Source of the DNA: a virus
Direction: 5' to 3' (one strand)
IMG/VR virus record: IMGVR_UViG_3300025305_000190
Location: 1-20,644 of that record
Length of the DNA stretch: 20,644 nucleotides
The notes under the pieces: generated by a model
The model's input: the letters and a program-made list of their open reading frames with translations, nothing else
Databases searched by the model: none
What the model was told of the DNA's origin: nothing
Position numbers and translations under genes: made by a program
Shown here: piece by piece, positions 3,113 to 13,211 of the stretch
Position numbering within the stretch: the stretch's first letter is position 1
How the letters are laid out: each line of letters begins with the position of its first letter

Positions 3113-4079
3113 ATCGGTTCACCTCTGCATTAATTTTAGGGAAATTTCGTCTTGCCAGTTGGTTTAGTTCGCTCCAAATGATGGCATGGGATTTCTTCCG
3201 TAGTGTTATTGAGTGAAGGTCCTCTTTGTTCGTGAATTTTTTAAAAGCATAATGGATTGATGTAAGCATTATGTCTTCAGTCCACATCTTAGATGGAGCT
3301 ATCGCTCCCGGTTTTGAAGTAGTACCCCTTTTAGATAGTTCAATTTCTATTTTGTGACGTATCGTTTTTCGTGGATCGCCATCGTTTATAAGGGCATTGT
3401 CTTTACCTAACGCCAGACCTTCCCAAAAATCTACACATGCTTTCGTGTCAATACTTCTATGCAGCAGTATTAAAGCTACAGAAGGTGCTATTGGTAATTT
3501 CAACATCTTTGACACAGTTTCTTGGAAGTATTTAATTGCATCTAAGCCTTCGTCACTCTCGTTAAGGTGGCTGTCTATAGCTACTGAAAGAGGATTGCTA
3601 ATTGAATAGCGGTGATTCCCCTGAGATGTCTCATATCGCAGGAATCTATACATCCACCTAGCTACTCCCGCTCGATAGTTATGATGCTCCTTCCCTAGCA
3701 AATAGAGGGTGTCTGCATTTGTCCTTGCCTTGTTTTGATCCATTGCAATAAAATCTTCAAAATCATATCCTGATAAAATAAGACTTTCATGTGATGTTCC
3801 TGTGTTTACCATCGCAGTCAACCGGTGGTGTCCATCTGCCAACTTGTGGTCAGGACTTATCCTAATGGGGTCAAACAAACGATCATTATATTCACCACTT
3901 AGCATCGCTCTTTCGAGAGATTCTAGTAAGGGCTTGCTTAGTCTTCTGTTCCCTATAGAATTTCCCAAAAGGATTTTCGCCTCGTTGGGTGTAATTAGGA
4001 TTTTGTCTAAGAATATTCCGTTCCCTAAATCAATTGGGAAAGTTACTGCCTTTGCCTTTTTACTCAATAGTGTAGTCAT
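3105..4079 (-). CDS. ParB/DGQHR-like domain protein
   Basis: 324 aa from ATG at 4079, chosen because AAGGAG lies six bases upstream; an in-frame ATG at 4118 would add 13 residues but lacks a comparable site and overlaps the upstream gene by 59 bp. The centre of the N-terminal half carries ISPDHKLADGHHRLTAM, the phosphosugar- or nucleotide-binding DGxHRL signature of ParB-like and DGQHR domains. It is followed by FIAMDQNKARTNADTLYLLG, typical of phage and plasmid proteins of this type. The C-terminal half is helical and basic with no recognised motif. ParB-like proteins may be DNA-binding CTPases or nucleases. Placed between a helicase-like ATPase and a nuclease, a DNA-processing or partition-type role is plausible but unproven. 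Confidence 0.7.
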   Translation of the reverse strand: MTTLLSKKAKAVTFPIDLGNGIFLDKILITPNEAKILLGNSIGNRRLSKPLLESLERAMLSGEYNDRLFDPIRISPDHKLADGHHRLTAMVNTGTSHESLILSGYDFEDFIAMDQNKARTNADTLYLLGKEHHNYRAGVARWMYRFLRYETSQGNHRYSISNPLSVAIDSHLNESDEGLDAIKYFQETVSKMLKLPIAPSVALILLHRSIDTKACVDFWEGLALGKDNALINDGDPRKTIRHKIEIELSKRGTTSKPGAIAPSKMWTEDIMLTSIHYAFKKFTNKEDLHSITLRKKSHAIIWSELNQLARRNFPKINAEVNRYV

Positions 4080-6067: not shown

Positions 6068-6276
6068 AATCTCTCCTCAATGTAACTGCAAATGCAATCA
6101 CCCGACTTAACCTTTGGGATGAACAATTTACAAGAGTCGCACCGGTTTATGCCCTCATCTTGCCGAAACAATTCTGAACAGGACTCACAATAATAATAGA
6201 GAGAGTCTGCATCCTCACACGCTTCAAAATGATTCTGTGCTGGCGGCTCGTAATAACTAGCATCAGGTATATTCAT
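6064..6276 (-). CDS. Cys-rich small protein, paralogue A
   Basis: 70 aa. ATG at 6276 shares one base with the upstream TAA, and SD GAGGTG lies seven bases ahead. Six Cys in CESC, CDSC and CIC arrangements suggest one or two zinc knuckles: residues about 29-34 pair with 46-49 and 60-62. It aligns with the product of 5704-5997 through the YEPP start and the NRCxxC...CIC end, but is shorter and lacks that protein's insertion. The rest is acidic and Tyr-rich (DADSLYYYC). The function is unknown; small zinc-knuckle proteins of this size in phage early operons are often host-interaction factors. Confidence 0.65.
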   Translation of the reverse strand: MNIPDASYYEPPAQNHFEACEDADSLYYYCESCSELFRQDEGINRCDSCKLFIPKVKSGDCICSYIEERL

Positions 6277-6473
6277 TACTTCACCTCGTTTTCATCAAAT
6301 ATCATGTCATCTAAAATTTCCCAACCTCGTTCTATCATGCTGTTTGTCATCCATTTCTCGTTGCTACTTAACCATGCCTCAGCTTGGTCGTCAGTCCATT
6401 GTGAGTATTCACGACTAGTCCTTATGTGGTGAACATCATCTGTAGTCCATGCAACTTCTGCATATCTTTTCAT
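6276..6473 (-). CDS. Small acidic protein, paralogue of 10601-10852
   Basis: 65 aa. ATG at 6473 follows AAGGAGTTAAAGA, a strong SD. The core VHHIRTSREYSQWTDDQAEAWL then WEILDDMI corresponds to IQQIRKDQGYPEWTNEQVKQWV then IEWIHDNI in the protein at 10601-10852, so both belong to one small helical family. It is Trp-rich and acidic with no metal motif. I do not know its function. Upstream is a 189-bp gap (6474-6662) without an ORF. The gap holds only a weak inverted repeat, ACGTCAG and CTGACGG about 18 bases apart, and I see no clear promoter or terminator there. Confidence 0.65.
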   Translation of the reverse strand: MKRYAEVAWTTDDVHHIRTSREYSQWTDDQAEAWLSSNEKWMTNSMIERGWEILDDMIFDENEVK

Positions 6474-9920: not shown

Positions 9921-9959
9921 AGAGAGAGTGTCTAGCCTGAACAACTTTGCACTCTCTCT
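9921..9959. repeat. Inverted repeat, 10-bp stem
   Basis: AGAGAGAGTG (9921-9930) pairs perfectly with CACTCTCTCT (9950-9959) around a 19-base loop. On the + strand it is followed by TATATTTATATA rather than a T run, so it is at best a weak terminator. It lies between the leftward promoter and the AT tract and could be a protein-binding dyad or an end marker of the gene-unit region to its right. Confidence 0.55.
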
Positions 9960-10038
9960 TATATTTATATAAAGAGATTATTAAAAAAGATATATATAAT
10001 ATATATATATAATATATATAGTTTTTCTTTTCTTTTAT
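9960..10038. other. AT-rich tract
   Basis: Almost no G or C for about 80 bp, with a TA-repeat core at about 9989-10020 and a T-rich stretch at 10021-10040. There is no gene. It would melt easily. A matching TA-rich tract lies at 13136-13211, so the six-unit region is bracketed by two such tracts. Confidence 0.6.
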
Positions 10039-10064
10039 TTAAGTATATTCATTAGGATATTATC
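10039..10064. repeat. Unit 5 left arm
   Basis: This 26-bp arm reads TTAAGTATATTCATTAGG and then ATATTATC. Its partner at 10531-10556, in inverted orientation, differs at one base only (A here, G there). Together they bracket the two genes at 10083-10513. It is the outermost left arm of the array and abuts no other unit. Confidence 0.85.
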
Positions 10065-10082
10065 TATAATATATTTAGTTTA

Positions 10083-10286
10083 TTAGTTTTTTAGTTTGTA
10101 TTTAGTTAGTGCGGTAGCTTTTGCCAACTCCACTTCTTCTTTTGATAGACTGTCATCCGCTATTTGTTGAGCAATCGTCGCACACTCTTGTGACTTCTTC
10201 TCTGTTGGTGCAGTCAGGGCTAAGTAAAGTGCTAGTGTAACCGCCTCAAGTGGGTTTTCTGGATACCCTTGTGGTACGTCCATCAT
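10083..10286 (-). CDS. Small helical protein (unit 5, second gene)
   Basis: 67 aa. ATG at 10286 overlaps the TGA of the upstream gene as ATGA, the usual arrangement for coupled translation; the second codon is also ATG. The sequence is Ala-, Leu- and Lys-rich and probably an all-helical bundle (LEAVTLALYLALTAP, SQECATIAQQIADD, EEVELAKATALTKYKL). The long hydrophobic stretch is broken by Pro and Glu, so a membrane segment is uncertain. I recognise no family. Confidence 0.6.
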   Translation of the reverse strand: MMDVPQGYPENPLEAVTLALYLALTAPTEKKSQECATIAQQIADDSLSKEEVELAKATALTKYKLKN

Positions 10287-10513
10287 TCCACCTTCACTTT
10301 CTCAGGGAAGAATGGTAACTCGTGATCCATACCGCCTTGATTAATGGTAAGTCGTACCTCAAACCCTAACTCTCTAGCGTAATCTAGTAGAAATTCATTT
10401 AGTGTTTGTTTCCCTGCTATGCGAGTTAATATTCTAGCCTTCTCATTTGCAGGGTAGTAATACTTAGTGCCATAATGTGTTTGTGCTTGTACCAATACTT
10501 TTTTATCGTTCAT
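10283..10513 (-). CDS. Small protein (unit 5, first gene)
   Basis: 76 aa. It starts basic and beta-rich (KKVLVQAQTHYGTKYYYP), with a central helix (KQTLNEFLLDYARELGFEVRL) and an acidic and then basic tail (MDHELPFFPEKVKVE). No known motif is visible. The start has only GAGAG about eight bases upstream, not a full SD. The same weak A- and G-rich leader (AAAGAGAG or AGTAGAGAAA) precedes most genes of the six-unit array, which sets these genes apart from the long operon. Confidence 0.6.
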   Translation of the reverse strand: MNDKKVLVQAQTHYGTKYYYPANEKARILTRIAGKQTLNEFLLDYARELGFEVRLTINQGGMDHELPFFPEKVKVE

Positions 10514-10530
10514 TAGTTTACTCTCTTTCC

Positions 10531-10587
10531 GATAATACCCTAATGAATATACTTAACTTATGATAAGTACTCTAAGATAGACACTAT
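10531..10587. repeat. Boundary of units 5 and 4: right arm 5 and left arm 4
   Basis: 10531-10556 is the inverted partner of 10039-10064 (25 of 26 bases). 10562-10587 begins GATAAGTACTCTAAGATAG and is the left arm of unit 4; its partner at 10881-10906 matches at 25 of 26. Five bases separate the two arms. At the junction ACTTAT and ATAAGT form a small palindrome. Arms of different units share little here, so each arm matches across its gene and not across the boundary. Confidence 0.85.
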
Positions 10588-10600
10588 AACTATATGTGTT

Positions 10601-10852
10601 TTATTCTTTCTCTCGTAACTCTAATTCTTCTTCTGAATATTTATCAATGTTGTCATGTATCCACTCGATCCCTGCATCGTTCATCGCATGGATAATATCA
10701 TCTTCATAACTATAAGACTCAACCCATTGTTTAACTTGTTCGTTTGTCCACTCTGGATAGCCTTGATCCTTCCTGATTTGTTGGATTTCTTCAGTGTCTA
10801 TAAGGGATTCTATCTCTATAAAGTCTTGGTTTTTTCCATAGTATTTTGGCAT
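10601..10852 (-). CDS. Small acidic protein (unit 4), paralogue of 6276-6473
   Basis: 83 aa. Its core IQQIRKDQGYPEWTNEQVKQWV, followed by AMNDAGIEWIHDNI, matches the small protein at 6276-6473 in order and spacing. It has a longer N-terminus (KYYGKNQDFIEIESLID) and an acidic helical C-terminus (EEELELREKE). The function is unknown. One member of the family sits in the long operon and one in a repeat-bracketed unit, so gene content has moved between the two regions or duplicated. Confidence 0.65.
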   Translation of the reverse strand: MPKYYGKNQDFIEIESLIDTEEIQQIRKDQGYPEWTNEQVKQWVESYSYEDDIIHAMNDAGIEWIHDNIDKYSEEELELREKE

Positions 10853-10880
10853 TTGGTTTATCTCTCTTTCTTTAAAAGAA

Positions 10881-10943
10881 ATAGTGCCTATCTTAGAGTA
10901 CTTATCTGCCTGACAGGTATCCTAAGATAGACACTAGACGTAG
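10881..10943. repeat. Boundary of units 4 and 3: right arm 4 and left arm 3
   Basis: Right arm 4 is 10881-10906; left arm 3 is 10909-10943, beginning CCTGACA and ending ACGTAG. Only two bases separate them. Here the inner cores are also alike: TAGTGCCTATCTTAG pairs with CTAAGATAGACACTA at 14 of 15 positions. The - strand RNA could therefore fold a boundary hairpin with one G-U pair. The outer, unit-specific parts differ. The partner of arm 3 is 11315-11349, with 30 of 35 matches. Confidence 0.85.
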
Positions 10944-10963
10944 TATCATTAATTATAGTTTCA

Positions 10964-11299
10964 TTATTCAGTACCAACTATGTGGCACGTGCAATCTTTA
11001 TCAGTATGGTACTCATCCAAAGCCTCATAGATCATCTCGTGGATAGTATCATGGTCTACTTTCTCGTATGGGTAATAATGATCTACTATATAACGTGCAA
11101 TCATGGCTCTCCATTTTGTATGTTCTCTATCTGATAGGTTTTTCCATTCAGTATGGTTATGTCCCCAATAACTATTATTGTATTCAGTTTCCAACATATT
11201 TCTAGCTGAATTAGATTTTCTTAGCCATCCTGTTACAGCGATAAGCATAAATTCTCGAATGGTTGTATTTTTATTTATATTCCAATTTTTTGTTATCAT
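10964..11299 (-). CDS. Hypothetical protein (unit 3)
   Basis: 111 aa, rich in Trp, His, Tyr and Asn. Predicted helices include TIREFMLIAVTGWLRKSNSARNML, EHTKWRAMIARYIVDHYY and HDTIHEMIYEALDEYH. The C-terminus has CTCH and several His, so a weak metal site is possible. I do not recognise a family. It is the only ORF between arms 10909-10943 and 11315-11349. The leader is A-rich with GGGAAAG about 13 bases upstream and no canonical SD. Confidence 0.65.
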   Translation of the reverse strand: MITKNWNINKNTTIREFMLIAVTGWLRKSNSARNMLETEYNNSYWGHNHTEWKNLSDREHTKWRAMIARYIVDHYYPYEKVDHDTIHEMIYEALDEYHTDKDCTCHIVGTE

Positions 11300-11314
11300 T
11301 TGTTTTGTCTTTCC

Positions 11315-11380
11315 CTACGTGTAGTGCCTATCTTAGAACACTTGTCAGGATATAATGACCAATCTAATATAGACATTATC
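11315..11380. repeat. Boundary of units 3 and 2: right arm 3 and left arm 2
   Basis: Right arm 3 (11315-11349) and left arm 2 (11350-11380) abut with no base between. Arm 2 begins ATATAATGAC and ends TAGACATTATC; its partner at 11589-11619 matches at 29 of 31. Across the boundary the cores pair only with three mismatches in 16, so the match within each unit is better than between neighbours. Confidence 0.85.
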
Positions 11381-11397
11381 TACTTTGTTAATTGTTT

Positions 11398-11568
11398 TCA
11401 TTCTTGTGTTATTACACATCCATTATTCGGGTTCTTACATTTAGGGCTATAACATTCTTCACATTCAGTAAGTATTTCATTTATCCGAATCGCATCTTGC
11501 AATAGTTTTAGATATTCGATTTGCTTACTATCAAAGGTAATTTCTAAAGGCTTTTTTTGTTCAGTCAT
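11398..11568 (-). CDS. Small Cys-rich protein (unit 2)
   Basis: 56 aa. ATG at 11568, TGA at 11398-11400. The N-terminal two thirds is a charged helix (FDSKQIEYLKLLQDAIRINEIL). The C-terminus has CEECYSPKCKNPNNGC, four Cys spaced as a compact zinc finger or knuckle. GGAG lies about 11 bases upstream of the ATG. It is the only ORF inside the arms 11350-11380 and 11589-11619 and fills the interval, which supports it as a real gene. The function is unknown. Confidence 0.65.
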   Translation of the reverse strand: MTEQKKPLEITFDSKQIEYLKLLQDAIRINEILTECEECYSPKCKNPNNGCVITQE

Positions 11569-11588
11569 TAGGTATTATCTCCATTTCT

Positions 11589-11652
11589 GATAATGCCTAT
11601 ATTAGATTAGTCATTATATAATTTAGATAGTTAACCTAATATAGACATTATT
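11589..11652. repeat. Boundary of units 2 and 1: right arm 2 and left arm 1
   Basis: Right arm 2 is 11589-11619; left arm 1 is 11624-11652, beginning TAGATAGTTAA. Four bases separate them. The inner cores TAATGCCTATATTAGATTA and TAACCTAATATAGACATTA can pair over 19 positions with two mismatches, the best boundary hairpin in the array. The partner of arm 1 at 12179-12207 matches at 26 of 29. Confidence 0.85.
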
Positions 11653-11668
11653 CATTATGGTTTTCAAA

Positions 11669-11968
11669 TTATTTATATTGTTTGTATGATTTTAAATCTT
11701 GATTCACTAGTTCTTGACACTTAGTAGGCAATGCTTCAAAGTCTATTACCTTATCATTAGTACCCCATACACTATAGCGTTGTTCTAATTCACCATGTTG
11801 ACCAAAGCCTTGTGGATGCGTTGGGTTCTCCGACATTGCTAGGTAGGGATAAACTCCATATTCATTGGGTTCATATAAAACCATGTACCTATCAAAGTGT
11901 TTTTTGCCGCTATCAGCTACTAGTAAAATCCCATTAGGATAATTTGTTCTAGACTTTCTATATTTCAT
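11669..11968 (-). CDS. Phage protein with NPTHPQGFGQHGE motif (unit 1, second gene)
   Basis: 99 aa. The N-terminus is basic (KYRKSRTNYPNG), then beta-rich (GILLVADSG, DRYMVLYEP). AMSENPTHPQGFGQHGELE is a conserved-looking signature that I recall from small uncharacterised phage proteins, and an acidic helix (FEALPTKCQELVNQDLKSY) closes the chain. No enzymatic residue set is evident. It overlaps the upstream gene by 11 bp, so both genes of the unit are read from one message. The function is unknown. Confidence 0.65.
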   Translation of the reverse strand: MKYRKSRTNYPNGILLVADSGKKHFDRYMVLYEPNEYGVYPYLAMSENPTHPQGFGQHGELEQRYSVWGTNDKVIDFEALPTKCQELVNQDLKSYKQYK

Positions 11969-12158
11969 TTTGTCTTTTTCCTATATAAAATCCACTATCC
12001 CATTGGCATTCTAAATCCATTAGATTTGCATAGCGATTGTCATCATAATTTATTTCACCTGATAACATTTTTTCTTTGGTTTTTCTATATGGATTATCTG
12101 CAAGGTTTGACCCAAATATATAAGCAGTCTTTCCTTCAGATGTAGTACTATCTAACAT
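11958..12158 (-). CDS. Small protein resembling the RMF/CrpP-like pattern (unit 1, first gene)
   Basis: 66 aa. The arrangement AYIFGSNLADNPYRK, a variable stretch, then CQWDSGFYIGKRQ resembles the A-Y-x-x-G...NPY...W-x-x-G-F-x-x-G pattern of ribosome modulation factor-like small proteins seen in bacteria and phages. The usual basic content is reduced, so I call this only a resemblance. If right, it could bind ribosomes or RNA. The leader before ATG at 12158 is AGTAGAGAAACAAATA, without a strong SD. Confidence 0.55.
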   Translation of the reverse strand: MLDSTTSEGKTAYIFGSNLADNPYRKTKEKMLSGEINYDDNRYANLMDLECQWDSGFYIGKRQNEI

Positions 12159-12178
12159 TATTTGTTTCTCTACTTTCT

Positions 12179-12235
12179 AATAATGCCTATATTGGATTAA
12201 CTATCTAGGTTAGGTATTCTTATCAGGATATTATC
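12179..12235. repeat. Boundary of units 1 and 0: right arm 1 and left arm 0
   Basis: Right arm 1 (12179-12207) and left arm 0 (12208-12235) abut exactly. Arm 0 begins GGTTAGGTAT and ends GGATATTATC; its partner at 12579-12606 matches at 25 of 28. The two abutting arms share little beyond the AT-rich core. Confidence 0.85.
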
Positions 12236-12251
12236 CACTAATTATTAATTG

Positions 12252-12557
12252 TTACTCTTCATTAATCATTTCATCTAATGCGTCAATATCAAGTTTAGGA
12301 TCAAAAAAACTTACACCGTCTTTTGTTTTAGTTTCTTGTGTAAATCGTTCAATCTTCTCATCTTGCCAAGTGTCTGGTCTCATTAGATGGTTAAATGTTC
12401 CTATTAAATCATTGCGCAATGATAAGTATGGCGATGCATAACCTTTATAACCTTTGACTATCTGATATAGTGGGTAATCATTTTGTAACCATAGCGCAAC
12501 GTTCCAAGTTTCATAATTTTTCCATCCATTGTAGGTAGTATCTTTTGCTAAACTCAT
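12252..12557 (-). CDS. Conserved phage protein with NGWxNYETWN start (unit 0)
   Basis: 101 aa. The start TTYNGWKNYETWNVALWLQND, written here in part as NGWKNYETWNVALW, is a signature I recall from small uncharacterised proteins in many phages (DUF7249, from memory and unverified). The remainder is helical and acidic (DIDALDEMINEE). No catalytic motif is seen. It is the only gene within arms 12208-12235 and 12579-12606 and the most upstream gene of the leftward array. Its leader AGTAGAGAAAACTATA closely resembles that of unit 1. Confidence 0.75.
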   Translation of the reverse strand: MSLAKDTTYNGWKNYETWNVALWLQNDYPLYQIVKGYKGYASPYLSLRNDLIGTFNHLMRPDTWQDEKIERFTQETKTKDGVSFFDPKLDIDALDEMINEE

Positions 12558-12578
12558 TATAGTTTTCTCTACTTTCTA

Positions 12579-12606
12579 GATAATACCCTGATAGGGATAC
12601 CTAACC
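12579..12606. repeat. Unit 0 right arm
   Basis: Inverted partner of 12208-12235. It contains its own small palindrome CCCTGATAGGG. No further unit abuts it on the right, so it is the outer end of the array. Confidence 0.85.
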
Positions 12607-12865
12607 TTTGTGCTTGGTACCGGATTTTGCCGGACGGTCAATCAATCTTTGTCATTGTCGCCATTACCCAAGAATCACTATTCAGTTGTTAAGGTTCTAT
12701 CACTATCCATAGTCTACACGCTCATACAATAAAAGTCAATAGGGTAGATATAGATAGCCTATCTATCTATATACCGGTGGGCTGTAGCCATATCATGTAT
12801 TGGTGTAGGGTGTATCCAAGTAATCATGTAAAGCTAATAAAAAAGGATAAGGATAAAGTCGCTAT

Positions 12866-12976
12866 CTAAAGTAAACACTAAACTATATTTATTTATATCT
12901 ATTCTAAAAGACTTAGCGTTTATGTTAGCTATGACCTAAAGTAAACGATAAATTATATACTTAGCGTTTAAGTTAG
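12866..12976. repeat. Four iteron-like sites in two dyads
   Basis: The 16-bp site CTAAnnTAAACnnTAA occurs four times in alternating orientation: 12866-12881 (+), 12913-12928 (-), 12936-12951 (+) and 12961-12976 (-). The - sites read TTAGCGTTTA at their start on the + strand. The second dyad has a 9-bp AT-rich spacer, the first a 31-bp AT-rich spacer. This is the pattern expected of binding sites for a replication initiator or a dimeric repressor. Confidence 0.65.
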
Positions 12977-13135
12977 CCCCACGTCACAATATTTTTTCCC
13001 ACTATATATAGCGTCTATTGGTTACCCACCGGGTATCCCTTAGCGATATGTAATAGTGCAAGTGCATACCCATCTATATTTAATTTTATAAAAAGGGAGA
13101 TAGTATAGATAGGATATTTATAAATATGAAGGCGC

Positions 13136-13211
13136 ATATATTATATATATATATATTACATACAATAATAATTCTTTTCTCTTTTTATTTATATAATATA
13201 TATATATATAT
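13136..13211. repeat. TA-repeat tracts
   Basis: Two (TA)n runs at about 13136-13158 and 13190-13211 flank a pyrimidine-rich segment (TTCTTTTCTCTTTTT). They would melt easily and may be a DNA unwinding element next to the iterons. Confidence 0.6.

Follow-up and report, generated by a model that had tools for sequence, protein, structure and literature searches.

Organization of the six-unit array

The window analysed here is a 20.6 kb fragment of a tailed-phage record in IMG/VR, with terminase, portal-position and early genes, and the record hosting the array represents one marine phage. A non-coding divergent region is followed on its left by the start of a leftward operon of small genes, which opens with 2.6 kb made up of six leftward units (10039–12607), each bracketed by an inverted repeat of 26–38 nt. 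In transcription order, each unit comprises an arm, a purine-rich leader of 15–28 nt, one gene or two overlapping genes, a further 13–20 nt and the inverted arm, such that the arms of all units are placed 15–28 nt ahead of the start codon and 13–20 nt past the stop codon. Two overlapping genes are present in units 1 and 5. The parts of the array are as follows:

10039–10064, (−): 3′ arm of unit 1, 25/26 complementary to 10531–10556
10083–10286, (−): second gene of unit 1, 67 aa, no family match
10283–10513, (−): first gene of unit 1, 76 aa, 4 nt overlap with the second gene, no family match
10531–10556, (−): 5′ arm of unit 1, 17 nt ahead of the start codon
10562–10587, (−): 3′ arm of unit 2, 25/26 match to its partner
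10601–10852, (−): gene of unit 2, 83 aa, short similarity to an arm-less small gene at 6276–6473
10881–10906, (−): 5′ arm of unit 2, 28 nt ahead of the start codon
10909–10943, (−): 3′ arm of unit 3, 30/35 match to its partner
10964–11299, (−): gene of unit 3, 111 aa, no family match
11315–11349, (−): 5′ arm of unit 3, partner of 10909–10943
11350–11380, (−): 3′ arm of unit 4, 29/31 match to its partner
11398–11568, (−): gene of unit 4, 56 aa, no family match
11589–11619, (−): 5′ arm of unit 4, partner of 11350–11380
11619–11652, core 11624–11652, (−): 3′ arm of unit 5, 29/34 match, core 26/29
11669–11968, (−): second gene of unit 5, 99 aa, phrog_4496 (E 2e-11)
11958–12158, (−): first gene of unit 5, 66 aa, overlaps the second gene
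12179–12212, core 12179–12207, (−): 5′ arm of unit 5, partner of 11619–11652
12207–12244, core 12207–12235, (−): 3′ arm of unit 6, 31/38 match, core 26/29
12252–12557, (−): gene of unit 6, 101 aa, DUF7249 (Pfam E 1.8e-12) and phrog_871 (PHROG E 4.4e-18)
12570–12607, core 12579–12607, (−): 5′ arm of unit 6, earliest in transcription order

The phrog_4496 family is of unknown function and has relatives in mycobacteriophages. All six arm pairs proposed by the first-pass annotation, which was made from the sequence alone, were recovered at their positions, with gaps between partner arms of 466, 293, 371, 208, 526 and 343 nt in units 1 to 6 and with matches of 25/26, 25/26, 30/35, 29/31 and 26/29 in the first five. 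The pair of unit 6 is likewise present, but its match is 26/29 or 31/38 rather than the 25/28 reported. Units touch or almost touch, with inter-unit arm spacings of 5, 2, 0, −1 and 0 to −6 nt.

Ungapped scoring (+1/−2) of the region 10000–12650 yields six pairs with scores of 20–25, whereas a pair scoring at least 18 appears in 0 of 1000 dinucleotide shuffles of this region. Three such pairs occur in 971 kb of background from 120 chance-matched viral contigs, which are chance hits to a too-short 16-nt core pattern in IMG/VR, and two in 550 kb from 42 helicase relatives. The six-unit inverted-repeat arrangement is confirmed as real and lies far beyond chance.

Further features can be observed around the array. 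A strong hairpin, AGAGAGAGTG...CACTCTCTCT, was recognized by eye at 9922–9961, just past unit 1, and possibly represents the array end. The divergent non-coding region harbors two near-identical inverted repeats at 12865–12990 (CTAAAGTAAACRMTAA ... TTAGCGTTTAWGTTAG), also found by eye. TA-rich microsatellites border the array and divergent region at 9990–10020 and 13140–13210, and the lengths near them vary by a few bases among assemblies. An Rfam scan of the window returned no match, and ARAGORN identified no tRNA in it. A function of the arms as terminators was rejected, as the sequence read has no T-run behind the 3′ arms and a terminator scan gave 2 sites compared with 1.4 in shuffles. At 1811–2359, a phage protein with a match to the RNA polymerase alpha C-terminal domain (Pfam E 1.7e-9) is encoded, which could touch transcription.

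A single repeat family with partner-specific changes

Gapless alignment of the 12 arms showed them to be diverged copies of one 26-nt element, with the consensus ATAAGTATTCTAATATAGRCATTATC. A sequence-only arm profile, searched at E up to 10 against 58 sources (567 kb, comprising the window and relatives), detected exactly the 12 arm sites and no further copy of the element. The earlier notion that the arms lack a common consensus is therefore contradicted; they form one family, yet are also paired gene by gene. Arms of the same unit are 81–96% alike and those of different units about half alike, while the outer arm tips vary from unit to unit and the mismatches within arm pairs are almost all transitions. 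Own-partner alignment scores are 24–27 and the best wrong partner scores 17.

It could be argued that the arms stem from an intergenic palindrome that was recently duplicated and have no function, since adjacent arms agree at 13–20/26 positions in the hairpin sense. Own-partner identity (20–25/26) is, however, above that between neighbours even though the latter touch, and neither the covariation nor the constant wobble pair described below would be expected of a neutral remnant, leaving this explanation very improbable.

Covariation was evaluated by treating each of the six units as a row and its 5′ and 3′ arms as the two strands of a helix of 26 pairs. Paired cells amount to 96.2% compared with a shuffled mean of 76.2%, and 0/500 shuffles were as high. 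Two-sided compensatory changes affect 16/26 pairs and 29 cells (shuffled: 7.8 pairs). Covariation scores 0.641 in the real arms compared with 0.240 in shuffled ones, and 0/500 shuffles reached either value. When the partner was slid by 1–3 columns, only 28–42% of cells were paired and 0–4 pairs covaried. The sample comprises six units of one virus and one unit of a relative, with no orthologous rows. These changes provide a strong argument that the two arms of a unit are maintained together, and not for RNA pairing over DNA copying, which covariation alone cannot separate because the rows are paralogues of one virus with a shared history. The suggestion that a gene and its arms constitute one unit is upheld by the strong within-unit covariation and by a profile limited to the 12 arms, with the amendment that the unit is translational, comprising two genes in units 1 and 5.

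One rival explanation considers the arms as 12 protein-binding sites or promoters, such as an operator or start-associated element, inverted at both unit ends. The shared consensus and the purine-rich leader on one side of each gene accord with such a role, and there is a precedent in the cluster K mycobacteriophages, where 17-bp inverted repeats are found upstream of many genes (PMC3203893). Their SAS/ESAS elements are located at the starts of some small non-structural genes and share a consensus, with both 17-bp ESAS repeats positioned upstream of one gene, mostly 4–13 bp apart and next to GGGATAGGAGCCC (PMC3203893). The phage arms are similar in being start-linked inverted repeats with a common consensus in a subset of small phage genes, but differ in that one arm precedes and one follows the gene, and in that the partners co-vary. 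Given the partners on opposite sides of the gene and the absence of the GGGATAGGAGCCC 13-mer from the leaders read, assignment of the arms to the ESAS was rejected. Binding sites furthermore give no reason for 16/26 co-changes between sites around one gene, and sigma-70-like sites are not enriched (23 compared with 19.9 in shuffles). A plain operator family, which leaves the covariation unexplained, was likewise rejected, and we regard binding sites or promoters as improbable.

At pair 19/40 (mRNA sense), the 5′ arm has G and the 3′ arm U in 6/6 units, and the single unit of the relative L020 also carries G·U at this position. The columns flanking this constant pair have changed together on both sides between units. 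This argues against simple copying of the arms, as a copied position would be G–C or A–U, so that some function appears to keep the two column-19 bases apart, the tolerated change being one that would still pair in RNA. Outside this pair, mismatches are about equally of the G·U and A·C type (mRNA sense); they therefore reveal no clear preference for wobble and do not favour RNA over DNA.

Proposed RNA panhandles and DNA-level alternatives

In a partition function computed for the 2.6 kb mRNA-sense strand, the arms pair with their own partners with probabilities of 0.90–0.99, and with the 3′ arm of the upstream neighbour at 0.00. The helices have energies of −32 to −50 kcal/mol, which sum to approximately −234 kcal/mol in the mRNA sense compared with −212 kcal/mol in the opposite sense. 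On this model, the arms probably pair in RNA, with each unit forming a separate loop. Three options had been put forward in the first-pass annotation, namely a mobile or exchangeable cassette, an invertible segment and a message whose ends pair into a panhandle, and the last of these agrees best with the constant G·U pair, the placement of the arms outside the start and stop codons and the own-partner pairing probabilities. We suggest, with slightly better than even confidence, that the array gives rise to a series of mRNA panhandles, each enclosing a single translational unit, which likely serve as double-stranded RNA processing stalks or insulating stalks, like the stems that surround 16S and 23S rRNA.

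In the mechanism we propose, the 26-nt element would be carried in the leftward transcript, where the copy upstream of the ribosome-binding region would pair with the inverted copy past the stop codon. Each panhandle would then consist of an RNA helix of 26–38 bp around a coding loop of 200–530 nt, with six such structures end to end. Selection would hold the arms of a unit complementary while the units drift apart, and because of this combination every arm would find its own partner and not that of a neighbour. A dsRNA-specific RNase, such as the host RNase III, may cut the helices so that the short messages are released separately; alternatively or in addition, the closed helix may shield the message ends and stop neighbouring units from co-folding. 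Processing or insulation is the favoured role, and cutting of the arm helices by RNase III in particular is a guess; at 26–38 nt, the helices pass the length of approximately 20 bp expected for this enzyme. Among the points against panhandles, relatives have similar small-gene operons without such arms, and adjacent arms are able to form local hairpins (−7 to −32 kcal/mol) earlier during transcription. Such a local hairpin may form first and subsequently give way to pairing with the 3′ arm of the same unit.

The main rival to the panhandles is a set of DNA cassettes of mobile or exchangeable origin, in which the inverted ends template each other or the arms are kept matched by gene conversion. 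The terminal repeats of linear replicons template each other via panhandle intermediates. Such cassettes would be compatible with the end-to-end abutment of the units, the greater likeness of own arms (81–96%) than of arms across units (about half), the predominance of transitions among the mismatches and the fact that ends of one family enclose six different sets of genes. Copying would nevertheless erase, in all units unless selection restored it, the constant G/A difference that sets 5′ arms apart from 3′ arms and persists amid co-changed columns. Among the genes tested, none was recognised as a transposase, an integrase or another mobility gene, target-site duplications are not evident, and the element was found nowhere else by profile in the 567 kb. 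We therefore view cassettes as unlikely, if still of appreciable probability. A transposon with terminal inverted repeats or an insertion sequence was rejected on account of the outer tips, which differ between units, and the lack of a recognised transposase.

Far less credible still, and the least probable of the explanations considered, are invertible gene segments with a pair of recombination sites for each unit. There are 26-bp inverted sites around every unit, whose unit-specific sequence would prevent recombination between units. The genes, however, all share one direction, the leader never changes sides, and none of the genes tested was recognised as a recombinase. The assemblies L009, L012 and L013 belong to the same virus (99.9–100%) and are collinear over the array; the four assemblies that cover the region are collinear, and no inverted copy of any unit was found. 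The invertible-segment option of the first-pass annotation is thus opposed by gene direction, collinearity and the absence of a recombinase among the genes tested, and a site-specific inversion cassette was rejected on the latter two grounds.

Comparable systems, related viruses and host

The pre-16S and pre-23S stalks to which the panhandles were likened above are processed by RNase III in bacteria and by bulge-helix-bulge cutting in archaea. Bacterial rRNA processing stems are inverted repeats with RNase III sites, in which the flanks pair across each RNA of one operon to form serial stems, each with its own sequence (PMC7038931). Complementary 5′ and 3′ flanks around each segment are equally found in the phage units. 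In contrast to the rRNA stems, the six stems here bracket phage protein genes and are derived from one repeat family, no bulge-helix-bulge was seen in the arms, and the cutting is hypothetical. More tentatively, and with somewhat less than even confidence, we propose that this phage protein operon is organized as an rRNA-precursor-like chain, where co-evolving 26-bp panhandles, one around every translational unit, make the RNA architecture addressable, so that the polycistronic message is fragmented or insulated one unit at a time.

Pairing of the 5′ and 3′ ends of bacterial and phage messages is already known in single cases, as are serial stems in rRNA operons. If true, six chained pairings that enclose protein genes, are individually addressed by sequence and bear compensatory changes from one paralogous unit to the next would constitute a new organization of the polycistronic message, and a clean system for asking whether a long-range 5′–3′ helix sets processing, stability or translation for each unit. 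Cassettes would instead represent gene capture of a new type, in which the ends are specific to each unit. On either reading, the covariation makes the array testable from sequence once one relative with the same genes is known. An initial literature search by feature description returned no match.

The RNase III sites between the early genes of T7-type phages are local hairpins; the arms would similarly split a polycistronic early message, but pair across the gene. End pairing is known for the icaR mRNA of Staphylococcus aureus, where the 3′ UTR pairs with the 5′ UTR to form a double-stranded RNase III substrate (PMC3868564). The two ends of one message pair there as proposed for each phage unit, although in icaR only one gene is involved and the pairing is short and covers the Shine-Dalgarno sequence, whereas the phage helix is at least 26 bp long, leaves the leader free and is repeated per unit. 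The promoter early stem-loops (PeSLs) of T4-like phages (cited in PMC4503421), for which a role in gene shuffling has been proposed, are likewise inverted repeats that recur between genes and accompany clusters of small early genes. Together with the ESAS they are the nearest phage features, and in both the repeats are local. The PeSLs combine a local hairpin with a promoter, whereas the arms pair best across the gene and lack a sigma-70-like promoter; with sigma-70-like sites not enriched and the across-gene partner preferred over the local one, the arms were not assigned to the PeSLs.

Among relatives with 83% terminase identity, one unit was found, only in L020, where its arms (3200–3224 and 3537–3561) surround the first gene of the leftward operon. 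A similar leftward operon in L017 lacks units and has repeated local intergenic hairpins instead. These hairpins, of the TGAGCAGTTTTTAGACTTGCTCA type, are located between small leftward genes at L017:6560–7430 and L020:2230–2265. In L181 (helicase 43%), the small genes are packed without arms. No such array is present in 79 further loci with DUF7249 genes, in 42 further loci of helicase-alignment relatives or in terminase relatives in Chloroflexota MAGs; none was seen in approximately 270 viral contigs other than that of the array. Repeats in L229, L273, L274, L303 and L304 were rejected as unit arms, being self-palindromic hairpins or REP-like and not unit-specific. The same genes did not turn up in any second virus, and no cassette exchange was observed. 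The unit 3 protein and the exonuclease, used as baits in IMG/VR, recovered the same virus only; the L020 unit protein and its neighbour gene returned L020 alone. A blastn comparison of 10000–13000 against phage records gave no match.

Terminase relatives at 53–54% are located on contigs of Dehalococcoidia/Chloroflexota MAGs (L303, L304 and L305), which hints at a Chloroflexota host. RNase III was found in two of the three Chloroflexota MAGs holding terminase relatives. In L012, an ORF of more than 1713 aa (16216–21354) is located downstream of the virion genes and continues off the stretch.
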